A stretch of 64,000 nucleotides of DNA, taken from positions 248,001-312,000 of the forward strand of contig NZ_BSDE01000001.1 in the NCBI RefSeq assembly GCF_030268085.1, read 5' to 3'. A program made the position numbers and the translations under genes. This DNA comes from Geothrix limicola. GTDB lineage: Bacteria > Acidobacteriota > Holophagae > Holophagales > Holophagaceae. Positions 2,582 through 16,907 of this stretch are shown here, piece after piece; position 1 is the stretch's first letter; each line of letters begins with the position of its first letter. The notes under the pieces were generated by a model, which was not told the DNA's origin, searched no databases, and was given only the letters and a program-made list of their open reading frames with translations.

Positions 2582-3361
2582 ATGCTTTGGCCGGACCAGG
2601 GCTCCCTTGGTCGCGAGCTGCCGATGAAACCTGCGCCCGATGTCGCCGTGATGTCGCCTCGTTCTGGGGACACCCGACTCCCTTCCAGGACGCCGCTCCT
2701 TCAGACCAAGTCCCTGCGCGAGCAGGTCTATGACTACCTCCGCGCGGAGATGAACCGGGGGGGGCTGGATCCTGGAGCCTTTCTCGATCTCAATGCCATC
2801 GCGCAGCGCCTCGGAATCAGCCGCACGCCGCTACGCGATGCGCTGCTGCAGCTGGAGGTCGAGGGTTACATGGAAATCCAGCCCCGGCGCGGATTCCGGC
2901 TGAAGATGCTGACCATCGAGGAGATCCGGCACATCTATCAGATCGTGGGGGCGCTGGAATCCGCGGCGGTGATGATCGCGGGGCCGCGGATCGGGAAGGC
3001 CGGCCTGGCGAAGATGAAGGCCGAGAACCTGGGCATCTACCGGGCCATCCAGGCCCAGGACTATGGGATGTTCTACCTCCACAACTCCGCCTTCCACGGG
3101 GTCTTTCTGGACGGTTGCGCCAATCCGCGCATGGCCGCGCTCATCAAGTCGCTCAAGCAGCGCCTCTACGATTGGCCGCGCCGCAAAGTGTTCCTGAAGA
3201 CCTGGGAAGTGCGCCTCGTGAAGGATCACGAGGATCTCATCGCGCTCCTGGAGGCCGGGAATTACAAGGAGGCCGGCGCCCTGCTGCGGGAGGTGCACTG
3301 GTGCTTCGACGCGCAGGAGGACTTCATCCGCGTCTACTACCTGACGGATCTCCCCGAGTAG
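2582..3361 (+). CDS. GntR-family regulator, FCD (FadR) type
   Basis: A transcription factor with an N-terminal winged helix-turn-helix (about residues 45-110; SLREQVYDYL then LNAIAQRLGISRTPLRDAL) and an all-helical FCD ligand domain (about 120-245). The FCD domain keeps histidines in the places where this family often binds a metal (FHGVF, KDHEDL, EVHW). FCD regulators usually sense small organic or amino acids. The start is uncertain: 2582 gives 259 residues, while 2624 and 2651 are in-frame alternatives and none has a strong ribosome site. It converges on the C69 dipeptidase gene (18 bases apart). The two copies of CTAATACATCAG nearby suggest that it controls the receptor/barrel unit and the peptidase pair; this is inference. 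Confidence 0.88.
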   Translation: MLWPDQGSLGRELPMKPAPDVAVMSPRSGDTRLPSRTPLLQTKSLREQVYDYLRAEMNRGGLDPGAFLDLNAIAQRLGISRTPLRDALLQLEVEGYMEIQPRRGFRLKMLTIEEIRHIYQIVGALESAAVMIAGPRIGKAGLAKMKAENLGIYRAIQAQDYGMFYLHNSAFHGVFLDGCANPRMAALIKSLKQRLYDWPRRKVFLKTWEVRLVKDHEDLIALLEAGNYKEAGALLREVHWCFDAQEDFIRVYYLTDLPE

Positions 3362-3379: not shown

Positions 3380-5026
3380 CTACTCCCGGTTGTTGGTGTA
3401 CTTCGTGATGAGCTTCTCGCGCAGCCGGATGTAGAAGGCGGGAACTGCGTTCTGGAGGCCCACACAGTAATCCGTGAGGAGCCGCTTGGCGGCCTCCGGG
3501 TCCTTCTTGTGAAGCGCCAGCGCCTCGGCTTCCAGGGCGGGCAGGCGGTCGAAGATGGCCTGCTCGAAGGGGGCTCGAGCTGCCCGCACATCCCGGATGG
3601 CTTCCTGGTAGCGAAGGTTGGCGAGGTTGTCCACGAAGTCGATGGTCCAGCGCGCACTGGCGTCGCTGTAGGCCTCGGGATCGTAGGTCTGGTAGCTGGG
3701 GGCGGTGGCCGTGACGCCCGCGTACATGGGCACGTAGGGGCTGATGGCGGGGTTGTCCAGATAGACCCAGTAGAGGCCGCCGATGGCATCGGGCAACCAG
3801 CCGCGCAGCTGGCACACCATGCCGTAGAAGCCGCGGTGACGGGCCACGGGGCGCCGGTAGGTGATCCGAAGGAGCGCGCGCAAATCCCTGCCTGGGAAGG
3901 GCGTGGCGAGGGGGCTCTGCACCAGGCCGCCCTTGCCGTCGGGGACGCGCCAGGCGGGGTCCGAGGCCATGTCGTAGATGGTGCCTTCCATGGTGGAGCG
4001 CTGGAAGGCGATGACATCCTGCACGGAGATCTTCTTCTCCGGTTTCAGTGAGAAGGGATAGATGGAGAGCGGCTCCACCGTCTGGAAGTAGGCGTTGAGG
4101 CCCTTGGCGGGATCCTCCGGGCCGAGCCTGCGGTTGGGCCAGGGGTGCCCGCCGGGGCGCATGCTCGGGGCGAAGGTGGTGGCGAAGAGCCAGCTTCGGC
4201 CGGTGGCCACCTCGTCGGGCAGGGGTGCATAGGCCTCCTGCCAGATGAAGGGGCGACCCGAGGCAGGATCGAACCAGCCGCGATCGATGGCCTCCTGCTT
4301 GTAGTTCTTCGAAACGAGGAAACGGGTGCTGTCCGCCGGATCGATGGCCTTGATGATGCTCCAGTTCGGGATGAGCACGGCCTCGTCATCGGGAATGCGC
4401 TGGGCGGCCCAGATGGCGCCGGGTTTTCCACCCGCCTTCTTCCATCCGGGGCCGACGGCGAAGACCTCGAAGACCCAGGCCTCCTCCGTGTCGCCGATGA
4501 CGAGGGCTTCGGAGCCATCGCCCGCGGAGGGCAGGAACCCGTGGGTTTCGAGCAGCTCGCCCACGAGGCGCACCGCGTCCTTGGCCTTGCGGCAACGCTG
4601 GAGGGCGAAGATCTGGGCCTGCTCGATGGTCATGATCTGGTCGCCCGCGCCCTTGGTCACGATCAGCTCTGGGCGCTGGCTCGTGGTGCTTTCCGCGATG
4701 CCGAGCTGGTGCTCGTTCATGTGGGAGTAGGCGGACTGGAAGTAGCCGTAGGTCTGCGTGACCTGGGGGATGTGCCCGAGCACCTCCCGCGGATGATCCA
4801 GGGGTTGCGAAGGATCCTGCAGGCCCCAGTAGATGGCGGCCTGGTCACCGGGCTTGAAGCGCATGGCGGGCACGACGCGGATTCGCGAGTCCGGCCCGCA
4901 GTCCGTGTGGGAGAGGATCACCGATCCATCCTTCGTCGCCTTCTTGCCCGCGGCGATGACGGTGCAGGGCCGGAGGGTGGCGGACGCCACGAGCATGGCG
5001 CAGAGCAGGAGCAGGGGCTGCTTCAT
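3380..5026 (-). CDS. Family C69 dipeptidase (PepD-like Ntn hydrolase), exported
   Basis: A 548-residue peptidase of family C69. After a hydrophobic leader, Cys21 begins the mature protein (RPC-TVIAAGKKATKDGS) and is followed by the typical LSHTDC segment. In this family an autoproteolytically exposed N-terminal Cys is the nucleophile. Further family features are the central SAYSHMNEHQLGIAEST block and the C-terminal helical tail. Such enzymes cut dipeptides with broad specificity. The leader suggests export, or removal of a propeptide. It lies 4 bases downstream of the S9 peptidase gene, so the two are co-transcribed and would act in sequence: peptides to dipeptides, then to amino acids. Confidence 0.88.
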   Translation of the reverse strand: MKQPLLLLCAMLVASATLRPCTVIAAGKKATKDGSVILSHTDCGPDSRIRVVPAMRFKPGDQAAIYWGLQDPSQPLDHPREVLGHIPQVTQTYGYFQSAYSHMNEHQLGIAESTTSQRPELIVTKGAGDQIMTIEQAQIFALQRCRKAKDAVRLVGELLETHGFLPSAGDGSEALVIGDTEEAWVFEVFAVGPGWKKAGGKPGAIWAAQRIPDDEAVLIPNWSIIKAIDPADSTRFLVSKNYKQEAIDRGWFDPASGRPFIWQEAYAPLPDEVATGRSWLFATTFAPSMRPGGHPWPNRRLGPEDPAKGLNAYFQTVEPLSIYPFSLKPEKKISVQDVIAFQRSTMEGTIYDMASDPAWRVPDGKGGLVQSPLATPFPGRDLRALLRITYRRPVARHRGFYGMVCQLRGWLPDAIGGLYWVYLDNPAISPYVPMYAGVTATAPSYQTYDPEAYSDASARWTIDFVDNLANLRYQEAIRDVRAARAPFEQAIFDRLPALEAEALALHKKDPEAAKRLLTDYCVGLQNAVPAFYIRLREKLITKYTNNRE

Positions 5027-5030
5027 GTAA

Positions 5031-7247
5031 TCACCTCTTGGGTTGGGCGTTCATCAGGTTGCGCACGAAGAAATCGCCGATGCGCCGGCGGATGTAGGGG
5101 TTCTCCAGCAGCCAGTGGTCCGCGCCGGGCACGACGAGCATCTCGAAATCCTTGTCGGCCTTGATGAGGGCGTCCACCACCTGCAGCGTGGAGGCGGGAT
5201 CCACGTTATGGTCCATCTCACCCACGGTCAGGAGGAGCTTGCCCTTCAGGTTGTGCGCCTGGGTGATGTTGCTCTGGGCTTCGTAGTGGGGGCCGATGGG
5301 CCAGCCCATCCACTGCTCGTTCCACCAGATCTTGTCCAGGCGGTTGTCGTGGCAGCCGCAGTCCGAGGCGGCGACGGTGTAGAAATCGCCGAAGGCCAGG
5401 AGGGCCCGTAGCGCGCTCTGCCCGCCGGCGCTGCCGCCGTAGATGCCCACGCCGCGGCTGAGGTCCATCTCGGGATGGGCCGCGGTCGCCGCGCGGATCC
5501 AGGCCATGCGGTCGGGGAAGCCCGAGTCGCCCAGGTTCTTCCAGCAGACGTCGTGGAAGGCCTTGGAGCGGTTGCTGGTGCCCATGCCGTCCATCTGCAC
5601 GACGATGAAGCCGAGCTCGGCGAAGAACTGGGGCGAGTGGTAGGCGCGGAAGGCCTTGGGCACGTGGCTGTCGTGGGGGCCCGCGTAGATGTATTCGATC
5701 ACGGGATACTTCCGGGCGGGGTCGAAGGCGAAGGGCCGGAAGATGACGCCGAAGATATCGGTCTTCCCGTCGCGTCCCTTGGCGGTGAACCGTTCGGGAG
5801 GCCGCCAGCCTGTGGCAAGCAGGGCGGTCCAATCCGCCTTTTCGACCTCGGCCAGGACGGCTCCGTCCTCGGCGCGATAGAGCCGCGCGACGGGCGGCAG
5901 ATCCACGCGGGAGCACAGGTCCACGAAGTAGCGACGGTCCGGGCTGAAGGTGGCGCGGTGGGTGCCATCGCCTTCGGTGAGGATGCGCAGGCCGCTGCCG
6001 TCAAGGTTCACGGACGCGTAATGGAGGTAGTAGGGATCCTGTCCGGGGTGCAGGCCGCCGGCGGTGAAGGTGACCCGGCGGGTCTTGGGATCCACCTGCT
6101 CCACGGCGCGCACGGGCCAGGCGCCGCGGGTGATCTGTCCCTTCAGACGGCCATCTTGGCTGTCGTAGAGGTAGAGGTGGTTCCAGCCATCCCGCTCGCT
6201 CATCCAGACGAGTTCGTGCGTGTCGTCCAGGAATTCCAGGAAGAATTTCCCGGAGTAGTCGATGAAGGTCGCGCTGCGCTCCTCCACCAGCACCTTGGAG
6301 TCGCCCGTTCCCGCATCCACCGAAACGACGCGCAGGAGCTGGTGGCCGCGCTCGTTGTAGAGGTAGGTGAAACGGCTGCCGTCCTTGCTCCAGCGGACCT
6401 CGGAAACCTCGTAGGGATTGGGCGCGAGGTCATCCTTCACGGGAATCTGGCGGCCCGTCTCGACTTCGAAAAGCTGGGGCCTGGGGCGGGGCAGGGGGTC
6501 GCCGGGCTTGGTGTATTCGTTGATCTGAGTCTTGGGCTGGAACTGTTCCCTGGGCGTGGATTCCACGAGGGTCACCTTGCGCTGTTCCACTTTGGTGGCG
6601 CGCAGGGCCACGAGCCGTTTGGAATCGGGGCTCCAGTGGAATTCCCCTGTGTAGGCGTCGCCCAGGTTGCCGTCGCGGCTGCGGAAGACTTCGGTGCCCT
6701 CCTTCACGCGGAGGACGGCGACGTTGTCACCGCGCAGCGCCGCCACGAATCGCCCGTCCGGGCTCTTGGGATCACCGGGCTTGTCGTCTTCGCGCTTGGG
6801 TTTGTCGGGTTCGGGATGCAGCGCATAGTCCTTCAGGTCGCAGATCCAGATCTGTTTCTCCACGCGGAAACGGAGGCTGGTGGCCGAGGGGCAGCTCAGG
6901 TCCTCCATCGGGAGCTTGCCTGCCTCGACGCTGCGTCCGAGCGCCGTGCCGAGGGCCTTGGCCAGCGCAACCTGATCGAAGGCGGGCTGCTTGGAGCCCG
7001 AGGGCACCTCCATGAGCACCCAGGCCCAGGTTCCATCCCCGAGCTCATCCCGGTAGAGGAAGGCGCTGCCGTCGGGCAGCCACAGGGGACGGAGGTCGCC
7101 GTGGCGCACCTTGTGGTCGACGAGGGTCCGGAGCCCGGCGGCGCGGGCGAAGTCCGGCTTGGGCAGGGGACTCTGGGCGCTCAGCGACATCCCTGCGAAA
7201 AGGAGGAACGTCGCCATGCCACGAAGGGTCGGGTGCGGAAGCTTCAT
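5031..7247 (-). CDS. S9 family prolyl oligopeptidase / dipeptidyl-peptidase IV-like, exported (copy 1)
   Basis: A 738-residue secreted serine peptidase with a signal peptide (about residues 1-24, ending SLSAQ). A DPP-IV N-terminal propeller (about 40-480) is followed by a C-terminal alpha/beta hydrolase. The nucleophile is Ser606 in YGGSAGGQS; Asp679 (GEMDHNV) and His711 (GADHW) complete the likely triad. The family cuts after proline or alanine near the N-terminus of peptides. A closely similar paralogue is at 50451-52685, sharing long blocks such as MDGMGTSNRSKAFHDVCWKN. It heads the pair with the C69 dipeptidase, and the second copy of the 12-bp element lies 62 bases upstream. Confidence 0.92.
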   Translation of the reverse strand: MKLPHPTLRGMATFLLFAGMSLSAQSPLPKPDFARAAGLRTLVDHKVRHGDLRPLWLPDGSAFLYRDELGDGTWAWVLMEVPSGSKQPAFDQVALAKALGTALGRSVEAGKLPMEDLSCPSATSLRFRVEKQIWICDLKDYALHPEPDKPKREDDKPGDPKSPDGRFVAALRGDNVAVLRVKEGTEVFRSRDGNLGDAYTGEFHWSPDSKRLVALRATKVEQRKVTLVESTPREQFQPKTQINEYTKPGDPLPRPRPQLFEVETGRQIPVKDDLAPNPYEVSEVRWSKDGSRFTYLYNERGHQLLRVVSVDAGTGDSKVLVEERSATFIDYSGKFFLEFLDDTHELVWMSERDGWNHLYLYDSQDGRLKGQITRGAWPVRAVEQVDPKTRRVTFTAGGLHPGQDPYYLHYASVNLDGSGLRILTEGDGTHRATFSPDRRYFVDLCSRVDLPPVARLYRAEDGAVLAEVEKADWTALLATGWRPPERFTAKGRDGKTDIFGVIFRPFAFDPARKYPVIEYIYAGPHDSHVPKAFRAYHSPQFFAELGFIVVQMDGMGTSNRSKAFHDVCWKNLGDSGFPDRMAWIRAATAAHPEMDLSRGVGIYGGSAGGQSALRALLAFGDFYTVAASDCGCHDNRLDKIWWNEQWMGWPIGPHYEAQSNITQAHNLKGKLLLTVGEMDHNVDPASTLQVVDALIKADKDFEMLVVPGADHWLLENPYIRRRIGDFFVRNLMNAQPKR

Positions 7248-7308
7248 GCGGATCCCCCATGCGGTGCCGCCAGGATTGATTCGGTCTGGTCGACACGGTC
7301 ATTCTGGA

Positions 7309-7320
7309 CTAATACATCAG
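7309..7320 (-). promoter_or_regulatory. Candidate GntR operator (or -10 element), copy 2
   Basis: Identical in 12 of 12 bases to 2309-2320 and in the same orientation relative to its target. It sits 62 bases before the S9 peptidase start, in the 119-base gap after the dehydratase gene. Its presence suggests that the S9/C69 pair has its own promoter rather than relying on read-through from the hydroxyproline operon. Confidence 0.5.
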
Positions 7321-7366
7321 ATATAACTCCAAACGATCCCGGAACCCAGGGCTTTCGCGGGCCGGT

Positions 7367-8377
7367 CTACTTCAGGAGGAAGCCCTTCCCGATCTCGTCC
7401 CCATCCTCGAGCCAGAACCGGGCCTCGCCGGTGTAGTGGGCCGATCCGCCCACGCGGACAGTGACGGCGGGCTTGGAGCCACAGGCGATTTCAGTTCGGA
7501 TTTCCCCTGTGAAACGGGCGCCGGTGACGCTGTCGATCTCGCAGACCTGCCCGGCACGCACGAGCCCGCGCTGGAACCGCGCGGCCATGCGGGCGGTGAC
7601 GCCCGATCCGGTGGGGCTGCGGTCCACCTCCGCATCCGCGAAGACGCAGATGTTGGCGGAGGGGCCTTCCTCCGGGCGCTCGCGGCCATCCGTGAGGATG
7701 CTGCCGTAGAGAAACCCCAGGTCCGGCTCGAGGGGATGCTCGATGGGAATCGCGCGGTTGACGGCGGCGGAGAGGACCGTGGCGGCATCGACCAGATCCC
7801 GCACGCGGCTGGTTCGCACATCGAGGCCGAACTGGCCCGCGTCCGCCAGGGCGTAGAAGGCCCCGCCATAGCTCACGTCCGTCGTCACCGGTCCGAAGCC
7901 CGGAACCTCCACCCGAATCTGTTCGGCCAGCAGGAAGGCGGGCACGCTGTCGAAGCTCACGCGTCCGGCCTTGCCATCCCTGACTTCCACGTAGACCTTC
8001 ACGAGTCCGCAGGGGCATTCGAGGCCCACTTCGGTGATGGGCTCCACCTTCGGCACCAGGCCGTGGTCCACGGCGTAGCGGCCGAGGGCGATGGTGGCGT
8101 GGCCGCACATGGTGCTGTAGCCCTCGTTGTGCATGAACAGCACCGCCAGATCCGCGCCAGGAAGACTCGGCGGCACCAGCAGCGCCCCGTACATGTCGTA
8201 GTGACCGCGGGGTTCGAACATGAGCAGCTTGCGCAGGTGGTCGAGGTGCTCGCGGACATGGCGGCGCTTGGTGAGGATGGTCGCGCCTTCGATGGGCGGG
8301 TACCCGCTGCGCACGATGCGGACCGGCTCGCCACCGGTGTGCATGTCAAGAACATGGATGGAAGGGGTTGACGTCAT
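7367..8377 (-). CDS. trans-3-hydroxy-L-proline dehydratase (proline racemase family)
   Basis: A 336-residue member of the proline racemase superfamily. Cys91 (TMCGHATI) is kept. The second catalytic position is Thr256 (DRSPTGSGVTA) where racemases and 4-hydroxyproline epimerases have Cys. Cys/Thr is the known signature of trans-3-hydroxy-L-proline dehydratase (human L3HYPDH type), which removes water to give delta-1-pyrroline-2-carboxylate. The N-terminal DMHTGGEPVRIV also fits this subgroup. AAGG lies 7 bases before the ATG. It is the last gene of the hydroxyproline operon, 34 bases after the alanine-dehydrogenase-like gene. The operon therefore takes both 3- and 4-hydroxyproline. Confidence 0.88.
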   Translation of the reverse strand: MTSTPSIHVLDMHTGGEPVRIVRSGYPPIEGATILTKRRHVREHLDHLRKLLMFEPRGHYDMYGALLVPPSLPGADLAVLFMHNEGYSTMCGHATIALGRYAVDHGLVPKVEPITEVGLECPCGLVKVYVEVRDGKAGRVSFDSVPAFLLAEQIRVEVPGFGPVTTDVSYGGAFYALADAGQFGLDVRTSRVRDLVDAATVLSAAVNRAIPIEHPLEPDLGFLYGSILTDGRERPEEGPSANICVFADAEVDRSPTGSGVTARMAARFQRGLVRAGQVCEIDSVTGARFTGEIRTEIACGSKPAVTVRVGGSAHYTGEARFWLEDGDEIGKGFLLK

Positions 8378-8411
8378 GTCGGTGCCTTCAGGTGGCCTTC
8401 TGTTGAAGGGC

Positions 8412-9548
8412 TCAACGCACGGGGTGCGCCTCGCGGGGACTGCAGGGCCGGCCCGTATCTTCGGCCAAGGCGGCGCTCACGATGCGGCCGCCCTGTACGA
8501 GCAGGCCGCCCAGCAGGCCCGGAGCCTCCGACACGGCGCCCTGCAGGCCCCGGTCCGCGATGAGCCGCATGAAGGGCAGGGTGGCGGCCACGAGGCTCTG
8601 GGTCGCCGCGCGCGGCACGAGGGCCGGGATGTTCGACACGCCGTAGTGGAGCACGCCCTCCTCCACGTAGAGCGGGTTGGAGAGCTTGGTCTGCCGCGAG
8701 GTTTCGGCGAGGCCGCCCATGTCGATGCCCACGTCGATGAGCACGGAGCCCCGTCGCATGGTCTTCAGCATGGTCCGGGTGATGAGCTTGGGCGTCAGGC
8801 GGCCGGGGATGGAGATGGCGCCGATCACGACATCGGACTGGGCCACCCGGGCGGCCAGGGTGGCGGGTGTGGACAGCGCCGTCTCCAGACGTCCCCCGGA
8901 AACATCCAGCAGCTTTGTCTCTACCTGCTTCAGCTGCGGGAGGGCGACGCCGAGCACGGTCACGGGGCAGCCGAGCCGCAGGAAGGCCCTGGCGGCCGCC
9001 TGGCCCACGACGCCGTCACCGACGACGAGCACGCGCGCGGGCGGCACGCCTTCGGCGCCCGAGAGCAGGATGCCGCTGCCGCAGAGCTCGCCTTCGCGAT
9101 GCTGGAGGGCCCAGGCGGCGATCTGCGCCGTCATCTGCCCGGCGATGGCGCTCATGGGCGTCAGCATGGGGCGGCTGCCGTCGGAGGCGGTGACGCCTTC
9201 GTAGGCGAGGCAAGTGATGCCGCTGGCGAGGACGGCGTCCAGCAGCTCGGGATCTCGGCCCAACTGCTGGTAGCAGGCCACGATGGTCCCGGCCCGCAGC
9301 CGGGCGTACTCGGCCTTCTGGATCTCCTTCACCTTGACGATCAGGGGGCAGGCGAAGGCCTCTTCGGGCGCGACGACGATGCGCGCGCCGGCCGCCACAT
9401 AGGCCTCGTCCCCGAAGCCGACGCGGGCTCCCGCGCCCGTTTCCACCCACACGGAATGCCCGCCCTCGACGAGGTTTCGGACGGCCTCGGGCGTGGCGCC
9501 CACCCGGGCTTCGCCGTCCTTGATTTCCTTCGGGATTCCGATCTGCAT
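8412..9548 (-). CDS. Alanine-dehydrogenase-like oxidoreductase with altered active site
   Basis: A 378-residue protein of the alanine dehydrogenase/pyridine nucleotide transhydrogenase family (PKEIKDGEARVGATP; Rossmann GDGVVG at about 177-182; DVGIDMGG). Compared with known alanine dehydrogenases, Arg15 and Lys74 are kept. The catalytic His in the canonical FTYLHLA block is Gln95 here (ACYQQLG). The acidic residue ending the second Rossmann strand (canonical VTVLDVN), which favours NAD, is Gly200 (VTVLGVA). A plain alanine dehydrogenase is therefore unlikely, and NADP(H) use is plausible. Its place in a hydroxyproline operon next to trans-3-hydroxyproline dehydratase suggests it may reduce delta-1-pyrroline-2-carboxylate to proline; this is a hypothesis. 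Confidence 0.85.
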   Translation of the reverse strand: MQIGIPKEIKDGEARVGATPEAVRNLVEGGHSVWVETGAGARVGFGDEAYVAAGARIVVAPEEAFACPLIVKVKEIQKAEYARLRAGTIVACYQQLGRDPELLDAVLASGITCLAYEGVTASDGSRPMLTPMSAIAGQMTAQIAAWALQHREGELCGSGILLSGAEGVPPARVLVVGDGVVGQAAARAFLRLGCPVTVLGVALPQLKQVETKLLDVSGGRLETALSTPATLAARVAQSDVVIGAISIPGRLTPKLITRTMLKTMRRGSVLIDVGIDMGGLAETSRQTKLSNPLYVEEGVLHYGVSNIPALVPRAATQSLVAATLPFMRLIADRGLQGAVSEAPGLLGGLLVQGGRIVSAALAEDTGRPCSPREAHPVR

Positions 9549-9617
9549 GGTGAGCTTCCTTTGCGTCGCGGGTGCGACCCCTTCAGGGTATGCGGCGCGA
9601 GCCGGGAAGGTTCGGGT

Positions 9618-11189
9618 TCAATGTTTCCCCATCACGCCGTCCCGCAGGCGCCAGAGGCCGAGCGGGTTGTCCTGGCGCAGCGGGGGAGGGAGCAGGCCCT
9701 CGGGCGTGTCCTGGTAGCACACGGGCCGGGCCCAGCGGGAGATGGCGCGGGTACCGACGGAAGTGGTCTGGGGCGCGCTGGTGGCGGGCCAGGGGCCGCC
9801 GTGCACCATGGCATGGCCCACTTCGACGCCGGTGGGCACGCCGTTGAACAGCACGCGCCCGGCCTTGGCGCTGAGCAGAGGCAGCAGGTCCGCGGCGAGG
9901 GCTTCATCGCCGTCGCCCGTCCAGAGGGTGGCCGTGAGCTGGCCCGACAGGGAGGCGAGCACGGCGCGCCGTTCTTCTTCGTCCTCGCAGGCTACGAGGA
10001 GCGTGAGCGGTCCGAAGACCTCCTCGGCCATGGAAGGCGTGGCGAGGAAGGTGCGGGCGCTGGTTTCCAGCAGGGCGGGGGCGCCGAAACGCGACGAGGT
10101 CCCCTGGGGTGCGAAGGCCAAGGTGGCGCCGGCGGCCTCCCGTTCGGCGCGTCCCTCGCGGTAGGCGCGTGCGATGCCTTCGCCGAGCATGGGTCCGGAT
10201 GTGCCACCGCTCAGGGTTTCCGCGAGGCCGTTGCGGAACGCGTCGAAACCCGGTCCCTTCACGGCCACGACGAGGCCCGGGCAGGTGCAGAACTGGCCGA
10301 CGCCATTCAGCACGGAGGCGCCGATGGCCTTGGCGATGGCTTCGCCGCGACCGGAGAGCGCCGCCGGCAGCACCGTCAGCGGATTCGCGCTGCCCATTTC
10401 GGCGTAGACGGGGATGGGCTCGGGGCGCGAAGCGGCGTGATCCAGGAGGGCCTTGCCGCCGCGGTAGGAACCCGTGAAGCCCACGGCGCGGATGGCGGGA
10501 TGCCGCACGAGCCGGGCGGCGACGGCATGGCCCCCATCGAAGAGCAGGCTGAAGGTGCCGGAAGGCAGGCCGAGCGCCGCGATGGCCCGCAGCGTGACGC
10601 GTGCCACCAGTTCACTGGTGCCGGGATTCAGCGGGTGCGCCTTAGCCACCACGGGGCAGCCCGCGGCCAGGGCCGAGGCGGTGTCGCCGCCCAGGGCGCC
10701 GAAGGCCAGGGGGAAGTTGGAAGCCCCGAAGACGGCCACGGGGCCGAGGGGTTGCAGGGCGGAACGCAGATCAGGCTTGGGCAGCGGCGCGCGCGCCGGA
10801 TCGCCCTTGTCGAGGCGCGCCTCGACCCAGGAACCCTCTTCGGCCACGTCCGCGAAGAGACGCAGCTGGAAGCAGGTGCGGCCCAGTTCGCCGCGCACGC
10901 GGGCCTCGGGCAGGCCGCTTTCGGTCATGGCCAGGGGCACCAGGTCTGGCGCCGCGGCTTCGAGGCCCTCGGCGATGGCGCGCAGCAGGGCGGCCCGCTT
11001 GCTTCCAGGCAGCGCGCCGAAAGTGGGCGCGGCAGCCTGGGCCAGCGCCACCGCCCGATCCACCTCGGCCTCGGTGGCGCTGTGGAAGAGGGGCTCCAGG
11101 GCCTCGCCCGTGGCGGGATTCACGGCCTGGAAGGTCGCGGATCCCCGCTGGCCGGGTTCAGAACCGAGAAGAGAGAGGCCTTGGAGCAT
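9618..11189 (-). CDS. 2-oxoglutarate semialdehyde dehydrogenase (aldehyde dehydrogenase family)
   Basis: A 523-residue aldehyde dehydrogenase of the type that oxidises 2,5-dioxopentanoate (2-oxoglutarate semialdehyde) to 2-oxoglutarate. Visible family parts are NPATGE near residue 24, the cofactor region FGASNFPLAFG (about 154-164), GFTGSYRGGKAL, the general base Glu264 (AEMGSANP) and the nucleophile Cys301 (GQFCTCPG). The FCT-PG form is typical of the hydroxyproline/pentose-linked subgroup. AGGTG lies before the ATG. It follows the deaminase gene and catalyses the last step of 4-hydroxyproline breakdown, feeding the TCA cycle. Cofactor preference cannot be settled from sequence alone. Confidence 0.9.
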   Translation of the reverse strand: MLQGLSLLGSEPGQRGSATFQAVNPATGEALEPLFHSATEAEVDRAVALAQAAAPTFGALPGSKRAALLRAIAEGLEAAAPDLVPLAMTESGLPEARVRGELGRTCFQLRLFADVAEEGSWVEARLDKGDPARAPLPKPDLRSALQPLGPVAVFGASNFPLAFGALGGDTASALAAGCPVVAKAHPLNPGTSELVARVTLRAIAALGLPSGTFSLLFDGGHAVAARLVRHPAIRAVGFTGSYRGGKALLDHAASRPEPIPVYAEMGSANPLTVLPAALSGRGEAIAKAIGASVLNGVGQFCTCPGLVVAVKGPGFDAFRNGLAETLSGGTSGPMLGEGIARAYREGRAEREAAGATLAFAPQGTSSRFGAPALLETSARTFLATPSMAEEVFGPLTLLVACEDEEERRAVLASLSGQLTATLWTGDGDEALAADLLPLLSAKAGRVLFNGVPTGVEVGHAMVHGGPWPATSAPQTTSVGTRAISRWARPVCYQDTPEGLLPPPLRQDNPLGLWRLRDGVMGKH

Positions 11190-11223
11190 ATGTCACCTGA
11201 GGGAGGAAAGCGGTTGAAAGGGC

Positions 11224-12132
11224 CTAGGCGCGGGTCGGCAGCGCCTCGTTCAGCGTGGCCTGGGCCTGCTTCAGTACTGCCAGGGCCGCCTCGCGCTCGG
11301 CGCCGACGAGGGCCGCGCGGGGGGCGCGCATGCGCTCGCTGCCCCAGCCCATCTCCTGCTGCACGAGCTTGATGAGCTGCACGAACTTGGGCACGGTGTC
11401 CATGCGCAGCAGGGGCAGGAACCAGGCGTAGAGGCGGAAGGCCTCGTCGAACTTGCCGGCGCGGCTGAGTTCGAAGAGCTCCACGCTCTCCTTGGGGAAG
11501 GCATTGACGAGGCCGGCGATCCAGAAGGAGGCGCCCATGGCCACGCCTTCCATGAGGCAGTCGTCCACGCCCACGCCCAGCACGAGGCGGTCGCCGATGA
11601 GGGCGCGGATGGCGGCGATGCGGCGGGCATCGGTGCTGCTCTCCTTCACGGCCACGAGGTTGGCGTGGCGCTTGGCCATCTCGGCGATCTGCTCGGGCAG
11701 GAAGTCGACCTTGTAGGCCACGGGGTTGTTGTAGAGGAGGCAGGGCAGGGGCGTGGCGTCGATGACGGCATCGAGGTGCGCGCGCATCTCGGCCCAGTCG
11801 CCCACGTAGACGTAGGGCGGAAGCACCATGAGGCCCTTGGCGCCCACGGCCTCGGCGGCCTTGGCGAGGCGCACGGCCTCGGCGGTGCTGAGGGCTGCGA
11901 TGCCCGCGATCACGGGCTTGTCGCCGGCGGCGAGCACGCAGGTACGGATGACCTCGACCTTCTCGTCGAAGCTCAGCGTGGCGCCTTCGCCGAGGGAACC
12001 GCAGGGCACGAGGCCCGAGCAGCCGTTGGCCAGCATCCAGCGGGCGTGGGCGTCCATGACGGCGAAGTTGACCGTGTCATCGGCGAGGAAGGGCGTGGTG
12101 ATGGCGGGAATGACGCCCTGGAAGGGATTCAT
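11224..12132 (-). CDS. Delta-1-pyrroline-4-hydroxy-2-carboxylate deaminase (DapA/NAL family)
   Basis: A 302-residue TIM-barrel protein of the dihydrodipicolinate synthase/N-acetylneuraminate lyase family, with Schiff-base Lys163 (VAVKESS), Tyr134 (LLYNNPV) and the GSLGEGATLS loop (45-54). In hydroxyproline operons this family deaminates pyrroline-4-hydroxy-2-carboxylate to 2-oxoglutarate semialdehyde, and the flanking genes supply the preceding and following enzymes. The start at 12132 is set by a 4-base ATGA overlap with the upstream dehydrogenase gene and by GGAG before it. A longer frame to 12216 exists, but its extra 28 residues are out-of-frame translation of the neighbour. Confidence 0.9.
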   Translation of the reverse strand: MNPFQGVIPAITTPFLADDTVNFAVMDAHARWMLANGCSGLVPCGSLGEGATLSFDEKVEVIRTCVLAAGDKPVIAGIAALSTAEAVRLAKAAEAVGAKGLMVLPPYVYVGDWAEMRAHLDAVIDATPLPCLLYNNPVAYKVDFLPEQIAEMAKRHANLVAVKESSTDARRIAAIRALIGDRLVLGVGVDDCLMEGVAMGASFWIAGLVNAFPKESVELFELSRAGKFDEAFRLYAWFLPLLRMDTVPKFVQLIKLVQQEMGWGSERMRAPRAALVGAEREAALAVLKQAQATLNEALPTRA

Positions 12133-13385
12133 GGCTGCTCCGTGGGTGAAAGGGCGCCGACGAGGTCGGCGAAGGTGGTGGGAACGAGGGGCTGGTTGGG
12201 CCCGCCCGGGGCCCATCCGAAGAGGAATTCCGCGGCGGGTCCGCAGGTGCGGCCCTGGCAGCGACCCATGCCGCAGCGGGCGTGCAGGCGGGCGTCGCGG
12301 CCCCGGGCGAAGGATTGGAGTGCGCCCACGCTCACGTCCTCGCAGCGGCAGAGCATCGTCTCGGGCGTGGCGAGTCCGCGCAGCTCGGGACGCAGGGCGT
12401 GCGCCGCCTCCAGGGCCCGTCCCCAGGCGCGGCTGCGCGCAGCGGCGGGGATGTGGCGCCGGGCTTCGTCCTCAAGCCCGGTGGCCGCAAGGCCCGCGAG
12501 ATGGCCTTCGGTCAGGGCCTTGTCCACGCCGCCGATGCCCGTGGATTCCCCGGCGGCGAACACGCCGGCCACGGAGGTGCGCTGCAGCTCATCGACCGCC
12601 ACCGCGCCCTCGTGGATGGCGCATCCCAGGAGGCGGGCCAGGTCGAGGTTGGGCACCAGTCCGAAGCCGCAGGCGAGCAGGTCGGCCTCCAGCACACGGG
12701 CTCCCTTGGGCGTATTCAGGTGCACGCGTTCCAGGCGTCCTTCGCCTTCCGCGCGGGTCACCCAGGCGCCCGCCTGCGTGGGCAGGCTCAGGAAGGGCAG
12801 GGCCTGGAGCAGGAGTTTCGGACGCGCGAGCAGGCCGGGGATGAGCGAAACCAGGGCACGGTTGGGCGCCTGCTCGGCCACCGTGAGCACGCGCGCGCCC
12901 TGGCTGCGCAGGTGCGAAGCCACCGCCAGCAGCAGGGGGCCGCTGCCCGCCACCACCACGCGCTTGCCCCTCACCTCCAGGCCGCCTTTGACGAGCCCCT
13001 GCAGGGCGCCTGCGCCGAGCACGCCCGGCAGCGTCCATCCGGGAAAAGGCAGGAAGCGCTCGCGCGCCCCGCTGGCAAGGACGAGGCGGTCGTAGGACAG
13101 GACCTCGGGGCCATGGGGCCCGATGAGGCCCAGGCTGCCGGGCCCGGGCGCCGTGACGATGCGGCAGCCCATGCGCAGGACGACCCCGCTGGTGCGCAGC
13201 GCGTGGAAGTGGGCCCCGGCCTTGCCGGGCGCGTCCTTGCGCCAGAGCCCGCGCCAGATCTGGCCGCCGGGCTCGGGCAGCGCATCCACGAGGGTGACGT
13301 CGGCGCCTAGCGCTTCGGCGGCCAGGGCGGCGCCGAGGCCCGCCGGACCGGCGCCCAGCACGAGGATCCGCGGCGCCCTAGCCAC
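12129..13385 (-). CDS. D-hydroxyproline dehydrogenase, alpha subunit (HcnB-like flavoprotein)
   Basis: A 418-residue FAD-linked oxidoreductase. The N-terminus is a dinucleotide-binding fold (RILVLGAGPAGLGAA, then a second motif VVVAGSGPLLLA around residues 140-150). The C-terminus carries a Cys-rich iron-sulfur region (LCRCEDV and ARCGMGRCQGRTC). This is the architecture of the large subunit of hydrogen-cyanide-synthase-like amino-acid dehydrogenases, including the three-part D-hydroxyproline dehydrogenase. The start is a GTG at 13385: GGAGGT precedes it by about 5 bases and it overlaps the small-subunit stop by 8 bases. The product oxidises D-4-hydroxyproline to pyrroline-4-hydroxy-2-carboxylate together with the next two subunits. 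Confidence 0.88.
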   Translation of the reverse strand: MARAPRILVLGAGPAGLGAALAAEALGADVTLVDALPEPGGQIWRGLWRKDAPGKAGAHFHALRTSGVVLRMGCRIVTAPGPGSLGLIGPHGPEVLSYDRLVLASGARERFLPFPGWTLPGVLGAGALQGLVKGGLEVRGKRVVVAGSGPLLLAVASHLRSQGARVLTVAEQAPNRALVSLIPGLLARPKLLLQALPFLSLPTQAGAWVTRAEGEGRLERVHLNTPKGARVLEADLLACGFGLVPNLDLARLLGCAIHEGAVAVDELQRTSVAGVFAAGESTGIGGVDKALTEGHLAGLAATGLEDEARRHIPAAARSRAWGRALEAAHALRPELRGLATPETMLCRCEDVSVGALQSFARGRDARLHARCGMGRCQGRTCGPAAEFLFGWAPGGPNQPLVPTTFADLVGALSPTEQP

Positions 13386-13605
13386 GGCGCACCTCCATGC
13401 CTTCCCGTGCGGGCGTGAGGCAGGCCAGCACCTCGCGGCCTTCCAATTGGACGCGGCATTCGAAGCATTGGCCCATGCCGCAGAGGGGGCCGCGCGGCTC
13501 GCCCGAGAGGCTGCGGCAGGCCACGGGCGGAAGGCCCAGGGCCGCCACCAGCAGGGCGCCTTCGGCCACGTCGACGGGCCGGCCATCCACGATGACTCTA
13601 GGCAT
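13378..13605 (-). CDS. D-hydroxyproline dehydrogenase, gamma subunit ([2Fe-2S] ferredoxin-like)
   Basis: A 75-residue protein with the ferredoxin/HcnA-like cysteine pattern CGMGQCFEC followed about a dozen residues later by ACLTP, so four Cys can bind a [2Fe-2S] cluster. It is the small electron-transfer subunit of the D-hydroxyproline dehydrogenase complex. It lies 8 bases after the beta-subunit stop and overlaps the start of the alpha subunit. The tight packing beta-gamma-alpha supports a single complex. The family is usually 80-110 residues, so this copy is compact. Confidence 0.88.
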   Translation of the reverse strand: MPRVIVDGRPVDVAEGALLVAALGLPPVACRSLSGEPRGPLCGMGQCFECRVQLEGREVLACLTPAREGMEVRRG

Positions 13606-13613
13606 GGATCACC

Positions 13614-14732
13614 CTAGGCATGGGCCAGCTCCGGGAAGCGCGAAGGCAGGTAGGGCGCGGGATCGATGGCCGGCTTCCGCCCGAGCACTTCGGCGGCGAT
13701 GAGTTCGGCGGTGGCGGGGGCTGTGGTGATGCCCAGGCCCTCGTGGCCGCAGGCCAGGAGGACGCCAGGGTGGCCGGGCAGGGGCCCGATGAGCGGGCGG
13801 TGATCCGGCGTGATGGGGCGGAAGCCCGTCCAGGCGCGGACCACGGAGACCTGGGCGAGGTCAGGTACGTAGGAGAGGGCCTGTTCGATCATGCGCCGCA
13901 GCAGGGTGGTGCGGATATCCGGCGCCTCGTCCCCGAACTGGCGGCTGGATCCCAGGAGCAGCTGACCATTGGGCCGCGGCTGCAGGTTGAAGGCCACGCT
14001 GTCGGTGTCGGAACCATGGGCGGATTTGAGGTAGCCGAGTTCCACCAGCTGGTGGTGGAGGAAGCCGGGACGCCGTTCGGTGATGGCCAGGTGGCCCTTG
14101 CGCCGCACGAGGGGAAGCCTCGGGATCAGGGCTTTCGACGCGCTGCCCGCCGCCAGCACCACGCATCCGGCCGACAGGGCGGTGCCATCCGCCAGCCGCA
14201 GGCCATGGGGTTCCAGCGAGGCCACCCGGATTCCCGTGAGGATGCGCGCGCCCGCGCGCTGGGCCGCTTCCGCCAGCAGGCGCGCGCCCGCGGGCGGGTA
14301 GATCACCGAATCGCCGGGCACGCGCATGCCGCCGGGCAGGTGCGGGGCCAGGTGGGGTTCCGCTTCGTGCAGGGCGCGGGCATCGAGCAGTTCCGCCTCG
14401 ATGCCCGCGGCGCGGTAGGCCTCGCAGCGGGGCTTCACGAGGGCCATCTCCTCCTCGTCGGCCGCCACCCACAGGGTGCCGCAGGGATCCAGTTCCAGCG
14501 CCGCGCCCAGATCTGGGGCCAGCGCGTTCCAGCGGGCCTGGCCCAGGCGGCAGAGGGCCAGTTCGGCGTCGGAACCGTCCAGGGCCACCAGGTGCCCCAT
14601 GGCCGCGGCCGTGGCGCCGCCACCCAGGCCTTCGGCCTCAAGCAGCGTGACGCGGCAGCCCTCGGTCGCGAGGGCCTGCGCGCAGGCGGCGCCCACGACG
14701 CCGCCGCCCACGATGAGGACGTCCGGGTTCAC
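13614..14732 (-). CDS. D-hydroxyproline dehydrogenase, beta subunit (DAO-family FAD oxidoreductase)
   Basis: A 372-residue protein of the D-amino-acid oxidase/glycine oxidase fold, with an N-terminal FAD site (VLIVGGGVVGAACA followed by Glu in LLEAE) and the C-terminal block TGFRPITPDHRPLIGPLPG. It is the substrate-oxidising FAD subunit of the HcnC type. The start is a GTG at 14732 that overlaps the epimerase stop as GTGA, so translation is probably coupled; no strong separate ribosome site is seen. A longer frame reaching 15407 is out-of-frame translation across the epimerase gene. The position next to the epimerase fits a substrate handed over as the D-isomer. Confidence 0.88.
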   Translation of the reverse strand: MNPDVLIVGGGVVGAACAQALATEGCRVTLLEAEGLGGGATAAAMGHLVALDGSDAELALCRLGQARWNALAPDLGAALELDPCGTLWVAADEEEMALVKPRCEAYRAAGIEAELLDARALHEAEPHLAPHLPGGMRVPGDSVIYPPAGARLLAEAAQRAGARILTGIRVASLEPHGLRLADGTALSAGCVVLAAGSASKALIPRLPLVRRKGHLAITERRPGFLHHQLVELGYLKSAHGSDTDSVAFNLQPRPNGQLLLGSSRQFGDEAPDIRTTLLRRMIEQALSYVPDLAQVSVVRAWTGFRPITPDHRPLIGPLPGHPGVLLACGHEGLGITTAPATAELIAAEVLGRKPAIDPAPYLPSRFPELAHA

Positions 14733-15676
14733 GAGGGGATCCCGAAGGCGAAGGGATCCTCGAGGTCGAGGATCAGGATGGCTTCGGCGGTGATGTAGGC
14801 GCGTCCCTGGATGTGGGGGAGCACCTGCCCGTTCACCCTGGACATCCAGCCCGTGAAGACCGAACCCACCAGACTCTCCTGGCGCCACACCTGGTCTTCG
14901 ATCAGCTTGCCTTCGTCGAGCAGGCAGGCCAGCTTGGCGGAGGTGCCCGTGCCGCAGGGGCTGCGGTCCCACTCCATGCCGGGGCAGAGCACGAAGTTCC
15001 GGCCGTGGTTCGCGCGGTTGGCTGCCGGCCCCGTGAGTTCGATGTGATCGATCTCGGCGCCGTGCTCGCCCGTGATGCTCGCCGGGCCGAGGGCCTCGCG
15101 GATGGCGCAGGCGGCCTCCTGCAGACGGCGCAGGTTGGAAGGACGCAGGTCGAGGCCATGGTCCTCCACGAGGAAGAACCAGTTGCCGCCCCAGGCCACG
15201 TCGCCGTGAACGAGGCCGAGGCCGGGCACCTGAACCGGGACCTGGCGCCGGTATCGATGGGATGGCACGTTGATCACCACGGCGGTGCCGTCCACCCTCA
15301 GCTCGGCCTCCACCACGCCCACGGGGGTGTCGATGCGCAGGCGGCCAGGTTGCAGGCGCCCCAGGTGGCGCAGGGTCTCCACCACGCCGAGGGTGCCGTG
15401 ACCGCACATGCCCAGCACGCCGACGTTGTTGAAGAAGATGATGCCGAGGTCGCAGCCGGGTTCATGGGGTTCCACCAGCAGGGCGCCCACGAGGACTTCC
15501 GAGGCCCGGGGTTCGCAGGCCACGGCCCGGCGCCAGGCGTCGTGGACCGTCATGAGCCGTTCGCGGCGTTCGCTCAGGGGGCCACTGCCGAGATCGGGCG
15601 CGCCCTCGAGCACCACGCGGGTCGGCTCGCCGCCGGTATGGCTATCGACGACGCAGATGGATAAGCGACTGGCCAT
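14729..15676 (-). CDS. 4-hydroxyproline 2-epimerase (proline racemase family)
   Basis: A 315-residue proline racemase homologue with both catalytic cysteines: Cys91 (GMCGHGTLG) and Cys241 (DRSPCGTGTSA). DSHTGGEPTRVV opens the fold. Two Cys allow two-base epimerisation of trans-4-hydroxy-L-proline to cis-4-hydroxy-D-proline, and the three-subunit D-hydroxyproline dehydrogenase directly downstream supports this substrate over proline. The start is placed at 15676 because AAGGA lies about 7 bases before it; an in-frame ATG at 15703 has poorer context. It is the first gene of the operon, transcribed away from the AraC-type regulator. Confidence 0.9.
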   Translation of the reverse strand: MASRLSICVVDSHTGGEPTRVVLEGAPDLGSGPLSERRERLMTVHDAWRRAVACEPRASEVLVGALLVEPHEPGCDLGIIFFNNVGVLGMCGHGTLGVVETLRHLGRLQPGRLRIDTPVGVVEAELRVDGTAVVINVPSHRYRRQVPVQVPGLGLVHGDVAWGGNWFFLVEDHGLDLRPSNLRRLQEAACAIREALGPASITGEHGAEIDHIELTGPAANRANHGRNFVLCPGMEWDRSPCGTGTSAKLACLLDEGKLIEDQVWRQESLVGSVFTGWMSRVNGQVLPHIQGRAYITAEAILILDLEDPFAFGIPS

Positions 15677-15709
15677 GGACGTTCCTTCAGGGGAAGGCCT
15701 CATCTTGTC

Positions 15710-15810: not shown

Positions 15811-16578
15811 ATGCCTCTCCCTCGCGTCTCGGGCCTGGATGCCCTCCTGAGCCGGCTCGACAGCCTCGGGTTCGTGGAGGAACTCTTCGATCACGTCCGC
15901 GACGCGGTCTTCACCGTGAAGGATCCCGAGGGACGCTACCTGGCCATGAGCCGGAGCGGCGTTGAGCGTTGCGGCCTGCCCTCCAAGGAGGCGGCCCTCG
16001 GCAAATCGGCCTTCGACCTCTGGCCCGCGGACATGGCCCGGCGCTACGCCGAGCAAGATGCCCGATTGTTCCGCACAGGCCGGCCCATCGTGGACGCGCT
16101 GGATCTGACCCTCTATCCGGATCTGCGGCCGGGCTGGTGCCTGACTCAAAAGGTGCCCCTGAAGGACACAGGTGGGCGCGTGGTGGCCCTGGCCTGCCTC
16201 AGCACGGACCTGCCCGAGCCCAGCCGCGCGGGCTTCATCGACGCGCCCTTCGCCGCCGCCGTGGATCACATCCACGGGCACTTCGCCGAGGGGCTGCGCC
16301 TCGAAGAACTGGCCGCCCTGGCCGGGTTGTCCCTGGGCCAGTTCGAGCGGCGCATGCGGAAGCTCTTCCACCTGAGCCCCGGCCAGTACGTGATGAAGGT
16401 GCGCATCCAGGCCGCGGCCCAGGCCCTGGCGGACTCCGATCATCCCATCGCCGCCATCGCCGATGAGGTGGGCTTCTGCGATCAGGCCGCCCTGAGCCGC
16501 CATTTCAAACAGGTCGTGGGCCTGAGTCCGGCCGCCTACCGGAAGTGGGCTTGGGAACGGACCGAGAAGCCGTCCTAG
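15811..16578 (+). CDS. PAS-AraC transcription regulator of the hydroxyproline operon
   Basis: A 255-residue regulator. Residues about 20-125 look like a PAS ligand domain (DAVFTVKDPEGRYLAMS, DLWPADMARRYAEQD, CLTQKVPLKD). Residues about 150-248 are an AraC-type double helix-turn-helix (LEELAALAGLSLGQFERRMRKLF, and IAAIADEVGFCDQAALSRHFKQVVGLSPAAYR). PAS-AraC proteins occur beside amino-acid and hydroxyproline genes. The gene is divergent from the operon with the inverted repeat between them. No Shine-Dalgarno is evident before the ATG, and a TAGACT-like box only 7 bases upstream suggests a very short leader. The PAS ligand is unknown; a hydroxyproline isomer is a reasonable guess. Confidence 0.88.
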   Translation: MPLPRVSGLDALLSRLDSLGFVEELFDHVRDAVFTVKDPEGRYLAMSRSGVERCGLPSKEAALGKSAFDLWPADMARRYAEQDARLFRTGRPIVDALDLTLYPDLRPGWCLTQKVPLKDTGGRVVALACLSTDLPEPSRAGFIDAPFAAAVDHIHGHFAEGLRLEELAALAGLSLGQFERRMRKLFHLSPGQYVMKVRIQAAAQALADSDHPIAAIADEVGFCDQAALSRHFKQVVGLSPAAYRKWAWERTEKPS

Positions 16579-16907
16579 CCGGCGTCGCCACAGGCTCCAG
16601 GCCGGATGCGGGGGCAATCCCTGGCGCTTCGGCCGGGTTCAGCCGAAGGGCAGATTAAAAATATCGATGACACAATATTTTTCTTGACCCCTTTTAAGTG
16701 TGTCCATATGCTACAGAAAATTCTTTGACAATTGAATTCTTTTGTTTGCTCAAAAATATATTCCCAGCCCCGTTCCGATCTTCAAGTCTTCAGGGTTCGG
16801 CTGTCGGTCTCTTCGGCCGGAGCGCCTCCAGGAAGGGGGCCGCAGATCGCGTTCCTTTGTCTCGATGAACCCGCCGGGAGCCTTCCCGGTCTTCGACAGG
16901 AGAAGCA
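16579..16907. other. A/T-rich promoter and leader region
   Basis: A 329-base gap between the AraC-type gene and the secreted DUF3472-like gene. Its centre (about 16655-16765) is strikingly A/T-rich against the GC-rich genes. It holds the promoter candidate at 16684-16712, a second TTGACA at 16725-16730 without a well-spaced -10, and an approximately 195-base leader. A short hairpin (CCGGGA, loop GCCT, TCCCGG; 16874-16889) lies just before the AGGAG ribosome site and might modulate translation. No known riboswitch consensus was recognised. Confidence 0.55.
16684..16712 (+). promoter_or_regulatory. Sigma-70-like promoter candidate
   Basis: TTGACC (16684-16689) and TATGCT (16707-16712) are separated by 17 bases inside the A/T-rich block upstream of the secreted protein gene. 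The boxes and spacing fit a housekeeping promoter. The resulting leader would be about 190 bases. Confidence 0.5.

Follow-up and report, generated by a model that had tools for sequence, protein, structure and literature searches.

Dehydration of trans-3-hydroxy-L-proline by trans-3-hydroxy-L-proline dehydratase (t3HypD) gives a product that tautomerises to delta-1-pyrroline-2-carboxylate (Pyr2C), a preformed cyclic imine. The known Pyr2C reductases belong to two families, ornithine cyclodeaminase (OCD) and malate/lactate dehydrogenase 2 (DpkA) (PMC4113996). Human t3HypD has the residue pair Cys104/Thr273, its first motif carrying Cys and its second motif Thr in place of Cys (PMC9309405). In alanine dehydrogenase (AlaDH), pyruvate is held by Arg15 and Lys75, while proton transfer at the carbonyl involves His96 and Asp270 (PMC10401832, PMC4691113), and replacement of Arg15, Lys75, His96 or Asp270 by Ala abolishes activity (PMC4691113, PMC10401832).

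The window (the whole 64,000 nt stretch of Geothrix limicola DNA analysed here) carries, directly beside a t3HypD gene, an ORF for an AlaDH-like protein (nt 8412 – 9548, minus strand). Judged from its sequence and gene context, this protein is quite probably a Pyr2C reductase that evolved from AlaDH. As such it would most likely add a new family to those already known for this activity, and would not amount to a new kind of system.

The AlaDH-like protein

The ORF is intact, encodes 378 aa and is preceded by an AGGA-like ribosome site. Domain and residue comparison identify the product as an AlaDH-derived protein with Gln95, Gly200 and Met277. Both AlaDh_PNT_N and AlaDh_PNT_C of Pfam are matched at full length, and there is no Pfam match to the OCD_Mu_crystall (PF02423) or Ldh_2 (PF02615) domains. 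Against the NCBIfam AlaDH equivalog, TIGR00518, the protein scores 347.6 bits, under the cut-off of 391.85. Its closest solved structures are alanine dehydrogenases, and the AlphaFold model (pLDDT 93.6) has an AlaDH-like fold, superposing on AlaDH structures 8hye, 1pjb, 2vhw and 2vhx with TM values of 0.92 – 0.94 (0.93 for the M. tuberculosis ternary complex, 2VHX).

An earlier note on this DNA had described Arg15 and Lys74 as retained, the catalytic His as replaced by Gln95, and the NAD-binding Asp after the second Rossmann strand as replaced by Gly200. Alignments bear out all of these points: the window protein reads CYQQLGR where the canonical motif is TYLHLA, and VLGVAL where it is VTILD. 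Also kept are Met132, Ser133, Asn306, the GxGxxG loop and Asp276, the catalytic Asp that matches Asp269/270 of AlaDH. Changes additional to those of the earlier note include Q277M, L94Q, L126R, A189F and A194C, among others.

The hydroxyproline operon

The gene lies within an operon that is an oxidative trans-4-hydroxyproline route combined with a t3HypD. The earlier note's placing of the gene in a hydroxyproline operon holds, as the components include a 4-hydroxyproline epimerase, an FAD oxidase, a DHDPS-type deaminase, an aldehyde dehydrogenase and a t3HypD. Read in the minus direction, it begins with a 4-hydroxyproline 2-epimerase (nt 14729 – 15703; Cys/Cys motifs, NF052296 at 406.7 bits against a cut-off of 450), followed by the DAO-family FAD subunit of a probable hydroxy-D-proline dehydrogenase (nt 13614 – 14732), a 75-aa [2Fe-2S]-ferredoxin-like subunit in a different reading frame (nt 13378 – 13605; CGMGQCFEC motif), and a Pyr_redox_2 subunit, likewise of a probable multi-subunit hydroxy-D-proline dehydrogenase (nt 12129 – 13385, the start being taken at the GTG before ARAPRILVLG). 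Next come a DHDPS-family gene, probably a pyrroline-4-hydroxy-2-carboxylate deaminase (nt 11224 – 12132), and an aldehyde dehydrogenase that, by Pfam and NCBIfam, is probably the alpha-ketoglutarate semialdehyde dehydrogenase of the 4-hydroxyproline route (nt 9618 – 11189). The AlaDH-like gene and t3HypD (nt 7367 – 8377) follow, and then, in the same direction, an S9 family dipeptidyl/prolyl peptidase (nt 5031 – 7247; Pfam) and, 4 bases after it, a C69-type dipeptidase-like gene (nt 3380 – 5026; NCBIfam score under its cut-off). On the plus strand, a PAS-AraC regulator (nt 15811 – 16578; Pfam) is divergent from the operon, and a GntR/FCD regulator (nt 2582 – 3361; Pfam) lies at its far end.

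For the dehydratase, NF045511 is the best model, with 354.2 bits against a curated cut-off of 540. Its motifs GYSTMCGHA and RSPTGSG form the Cys/Thr pair expected of a t3HypD, and from this Thr motif and the family score (under the cut-off) it is probably an enzyme of that type.

Lying between the FAD and Pyr_redox genes, the [2Fe-2S] ORF (nt 13378 – 13605, minus strand) points to a hydroxy-D-proline dehydrogenase of three subunits, like the LhpBCD type. The S9 and C69-like peptidase genes (nt 3380 – 7247, minus strand) may supply the operon with hydroxyproline from peptides. The G+C content of the operon region (nt 3380 – 15703) is 70%, relative to 65% in nt 16601 – 64000 of the window, and the t3HypD/AlaDH-like pair occurs only sporadically within the family; together, these two features would fit horizontal acquisition of the region.

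Orthologues and the conserved gene pair

Roughly 880 distinct genomes were searched overall with the AlaDH-like protein. Among 77 genomes of the same family there were two orthologues, G1140 and G1141, both from another genus and 65% and 63% identical to the window protein, while everything else in that search was at most about 50% identical. The sample thus has three members including that of the window, two of them from incomplete MAGs (71% and 89%). Both orthologues carry the motifs GYQQ[LM]ARD (Gln95), VTVLG (Gly200), GIDMGG (Met277) and PNIPA, and both fall under the TIGR00518 cut-off of 391.85 (G1140, 351.8; G1141, 346.0). As the same residues are common to both, the changes go beyond chance.

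Searches of 396 Acidobacteriota, 350 Gammaproteobacteria, 91 genomes of another class, and plasmids gave no orthologue among the readable best matches, and a peptide-pattern search of 84,980 species gave no further one among the best matches readable residue by residue. A search of viral contigs for orthologues found nothing. Outside the family, the best matches readable residue by residue were canonical His-bearing AlaDHs, a flavobacterial paralogue (see below) or transhydrogenase subunits.

The co-occurrence of the Gln/Gly pair with t3HypD, a possibility raised in the earlier note, was seen in all three carriers found (3/3), the two genes being directly adjacent in each. The dehydratases of the G1140 and G1141 loci are 82% and 79% identical to that of the window. 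In the window, the pair sits within the oxidative 4-hydroxyproline operon. In G1140, the AlaDH-like gene and t3HypD stand alone with a divergent GntR-type regulator, flanked by a phosphofructokinase-like gene on one side and glycine dehydrogenase genes on the other (named by sequence inspection). In G1141, they have LivG/LivF transporter genes on one side and a glycyl-radical enzyme with its activase on the other. Since the surroundings differ in all three genomes, the conserved unit is exactly the AlaDH-like gene plus t3HypD, and this constant pairing across differing contexts is the strongest evidence on function. The glycyl-radical enzyme of G1141 (L291:4176-7669) has trans-4-hydroxy-L-proline dehydratase as its best match, at a score under cut-off, and the locus is possibly a combined anaerobic cluster for conversion of 3- and 4-hydroxyproline to proline.

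Divergence from alanine dehydrogenases

The canonical set used for comparison comprised 134 AlaDHs selected for Arg15, Lys74 and His95, in whose alignment 81 positions reach a conservation of 95% or more. Of these 81 positions, 61 are retained by the three orthologues and 14 are changed in all three, nine of them to the same residue (Q94, Q95, V106, R126, A144, F189, C194, M277 and L350). Gly200 is also fixed in the three orthologues, while residue 200 in the canonical set is Asp (111), Glu (22) or Thr (1), and never Gly. The orthologues group as a single clade (support 1.0), in which the stem measures 0.53 substitutions per site and the tips 0.27 – 0.29. Pairwise dN/dS among them is approximately 0.24, a rough value as dS is high (1.1 – 1.3). 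The long stem and this ratio argue for a burst of change followed by constraint, not for decay. An early tree placed a Gallionellaceae AlaDH next to the window protein, a placement that was not reproduced once the orthologues were added.

Gln-bearing relatives in Flavobacteriales (L045, L047) came to notice through their position next to proline dehydrogenase and were considered as independent support. They were rejected as such because a search of 247 Bacteroidota placed them in a widespread paralogue family. This flavobacterial paralogue (L045, L047, L235-L261) shares with the window clade the Gln at the His position, often a Met after the catalytic Asp, and a NIPA/NIPS motif. It differs in that Lys74 is replaced (mostly by Glu), the NAD Asp is kept, and it forms a separate clade that is unpaired with t3HypD. 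In one of its carrier genomes the t3HypD already has an OCD gene next to it, which, like the loss of Lys74, spoke for the rejection. The Gln apparently arose independently in this paralogue and, as the latter is common in Flavobacteriia, replacement of the His by Gln is not diagnostic by itself.

Across Bacteroidota, an AlaDH-like paralogue of this kind is near-universal (L045:1823-3022, L047:9911-11110, L235-L263), with Gln at the catalytic His in most Flavobacteriia and Glu or Ala at the substrate Lys. It adjoins tsaE-like genes where inspected, and a proline dehydrogenase gene occurs in the fetched flank of 5 of 30 loci. Its annotation as alanine dehydrogenase seems doubtful.

Distribution of known Pyr2C reductases

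That the operon contains neither an OCD- nor a DpkA-type Pyr2C reductase, as the earlier note had stated, agrees with the family searches. The note had also counted a recognised reductase elsewhere in the genome as evidence against its reading; for the OCD and Ldh_2 families none was found, both PF02423 and PF02615 being absent from the 97%-complete genome in a whole-genome search in which positive controls gave matches. A Pyr2C reductase could still belong to a different family, or be encoded in the 3% of the genome that is missing. A proline dehydrogenase gene is present, so L-proline would be usable.

Among 26 other acidobacterial Thr-type t3HypD loci, an OCD-type gene lies not more than 1.5 kb from t3HypD in nine, and an AlaDH-family gene within 1.5 kb in none, so that the AlaDH-like gene of the window holds the place of the known OCD reductase. 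A local reductase is not obligatory, since at the remaining 17 of these 26 loci (L218-L234) the larger stretches fetched contain no OCD and no AlaDH-family gene. No reductase gene directly adjoins the closest plasmid t3HypD (Thalassospira, 60%). In three acidobacteria (L215, L216 and L217), proline-racemase-family genes adjoin OCD-type genes, and their Cys/Cys pair (RSPCGTGTCAVLA) makes them epimerases or racemases by motif. In the literature library searched, no paper was found that connects Pyr2C reduction with such AlaDH-family proteins.

Proposed reaction and alternative explanations

In the reaction that we infer for the AlaDH-like protein (substrate, product, mechanism and cofactor alike), the carboxylate of Pyr2C would be bound via Arg15 and Lys74, hydride from NAD(P)H would be delivered to C2, and the nitrogen would be protonated with help of Asp276 and/or Lys74. 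The L-proline so formed could then be oxidised by the proline dehydrogenase of the genome. In AlaDH, the His would act on the carbonyl oxygen while the carbinolamine forms and water is lost; because a preformed imine needs neither step, position 95 would be free to become Gln, and the residues predicted to serve carboxylate binding, hydride transfer and nitrogen protonation are kept.

The earlier note had proposed a new NADPH-dependent imine reductase making L-proline. Of this, the reductase part is favoured by the adjacency to t3HypD in 3/3 carriers and the absence of the known families, while the NADPH part is weak, as the residues that follow the shared Gly200 differ among the three proteins (GVALP, GADEQ and GQRPS). 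An Arg placed as expected for NADP occurs in only one orthologue, and the three proteins share no positive residue for phosphate binding. With the acidic residue at position 200 gone, a block on NADP would nevertheless be removed, and a preference for NADPH over NADH is, as a guess, only slightly likelier than not.

The fold is of AlaDH/PNT type throughout, with Arg15, Lys74 and Asp276 kept, and the gene is the only AlaDH-like one in the genome apart from one transhydrogenase-subunit-like match. The protein could then be an alanine dehydrogenase, ordinary or a little altered, by which ammonia from the 4-hydroxyproline deaminase is fixed as alanine, ammonia being released by the window operon. 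This is improbable, given that replacement of the His abolishes AlaDH activity (PMC4691113, PMC10401832), that all three orthologues depart from AlaDH at 14 of its 81 near-invariant positions, and that in G1140 the gene is paired with t3HypD alone, a step without ammonia release. Loss of an essential residue could also indicate a partly inactive AlaDH relative that is not a catalyst of the pathway and has a structural or regulatory role, and the near-universal Bacteroidota paralogue is often without that residue too. Most of those paralogues, however, have Glu or Ala at position 74, whereas the window clade keeps Arg15, Lys74, Asp276 and the GxGxxG loop, and the dN/dS of about 0.24 likewise makes such a role very improbable.

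A reductase or amino acid dehydrogenase for one or several related substrates, such as open-chain 5-amino-2-oxopentanoate (giving ornithine), delta-1-piperideine-2-carboxylate or a hydroxylated pyrroline-2-carboxylate, would be in keeping with an active site that is reshaped near the substrate in these AlaDH-like proteins (L94Q, H95Q, P76I/L, T118G/N and Q277M). DpkA-type Pyr2C reductases also accept piperideine-2-carboxylate, going by the title of a 2005 paper cited in PMC4113996. Such a specificity is nonetheless unlikely, as the constant partner is t3HypD, the product of which is Pyr2C, and the His is expected to be required where an open-chain keto acid is reductively aminated.

Reduction of Pyr2C is thus the preferred reading. 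A wider one can be offered tentatively, in which the protein belongs to a third class of Pyr2C reductase with an evolutionary origin of its own. Derived from AlaDH by His-to-Gln replacement and preferring NADPH, this class would move together with t3HypD as a two-gene module able to join different hydroxyproline pathways, among them one that has a glycyl-radical hydroxyproline dehydratase.

Comparison with known systems

Automatic annotation would label the protein an alanine dehydrogenase despite loss of the defining residue. If it is a Pyr2C reductase, the missing reductase step of 3-hydroxyproline use would be filled in these bacteria, and an AlaDH-derived family would join the two unrelated families already known. 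It would also provide a clean natural case of an amino acid dehydrogenase becoming an imine reductase once the imine need not be built, a change open to point mutants in both directions and useful for cyclic amino acid biocatalysis.

With L-alanine dehydrogenase (TIGR00518; 2EEZ, 1PJC, 2VHX) the window protein shares 38 – 50% identity, the fold, the domain order, the carboxylate-binding Arg15/Lys74, the catalytic Asp276 and Met132/Ser133 of the nicotinamide site. It differs in having Gln for the catalytic His, Gly for the NAD Asp and Met for the Gln next to the catalytic Asp, and in its linkage to t3HypD. The OCD/mu-crystallin-type Pyr2C reductase (PF02423; PMC4113996) is alike in the proposed reaction and in its place beside t3HypD, but is of an unrelated family. 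The DpkA/MLD2-type enzyme (PF02615) is alike in the proposed reaction and unrelated in both fold and family. Although they act on other substrates, condensing an oxo acid with an amino acid, and are likened here by description and not by sequence, saccharopine dehydrogenase (fungal Lys1 type) and N5-(carboxyethyl)ornithine synthase are members of the AlaDH/PNT superfamily that form secondary amines by imine reduction, so that this chemistry has a precedent within the superfamily.
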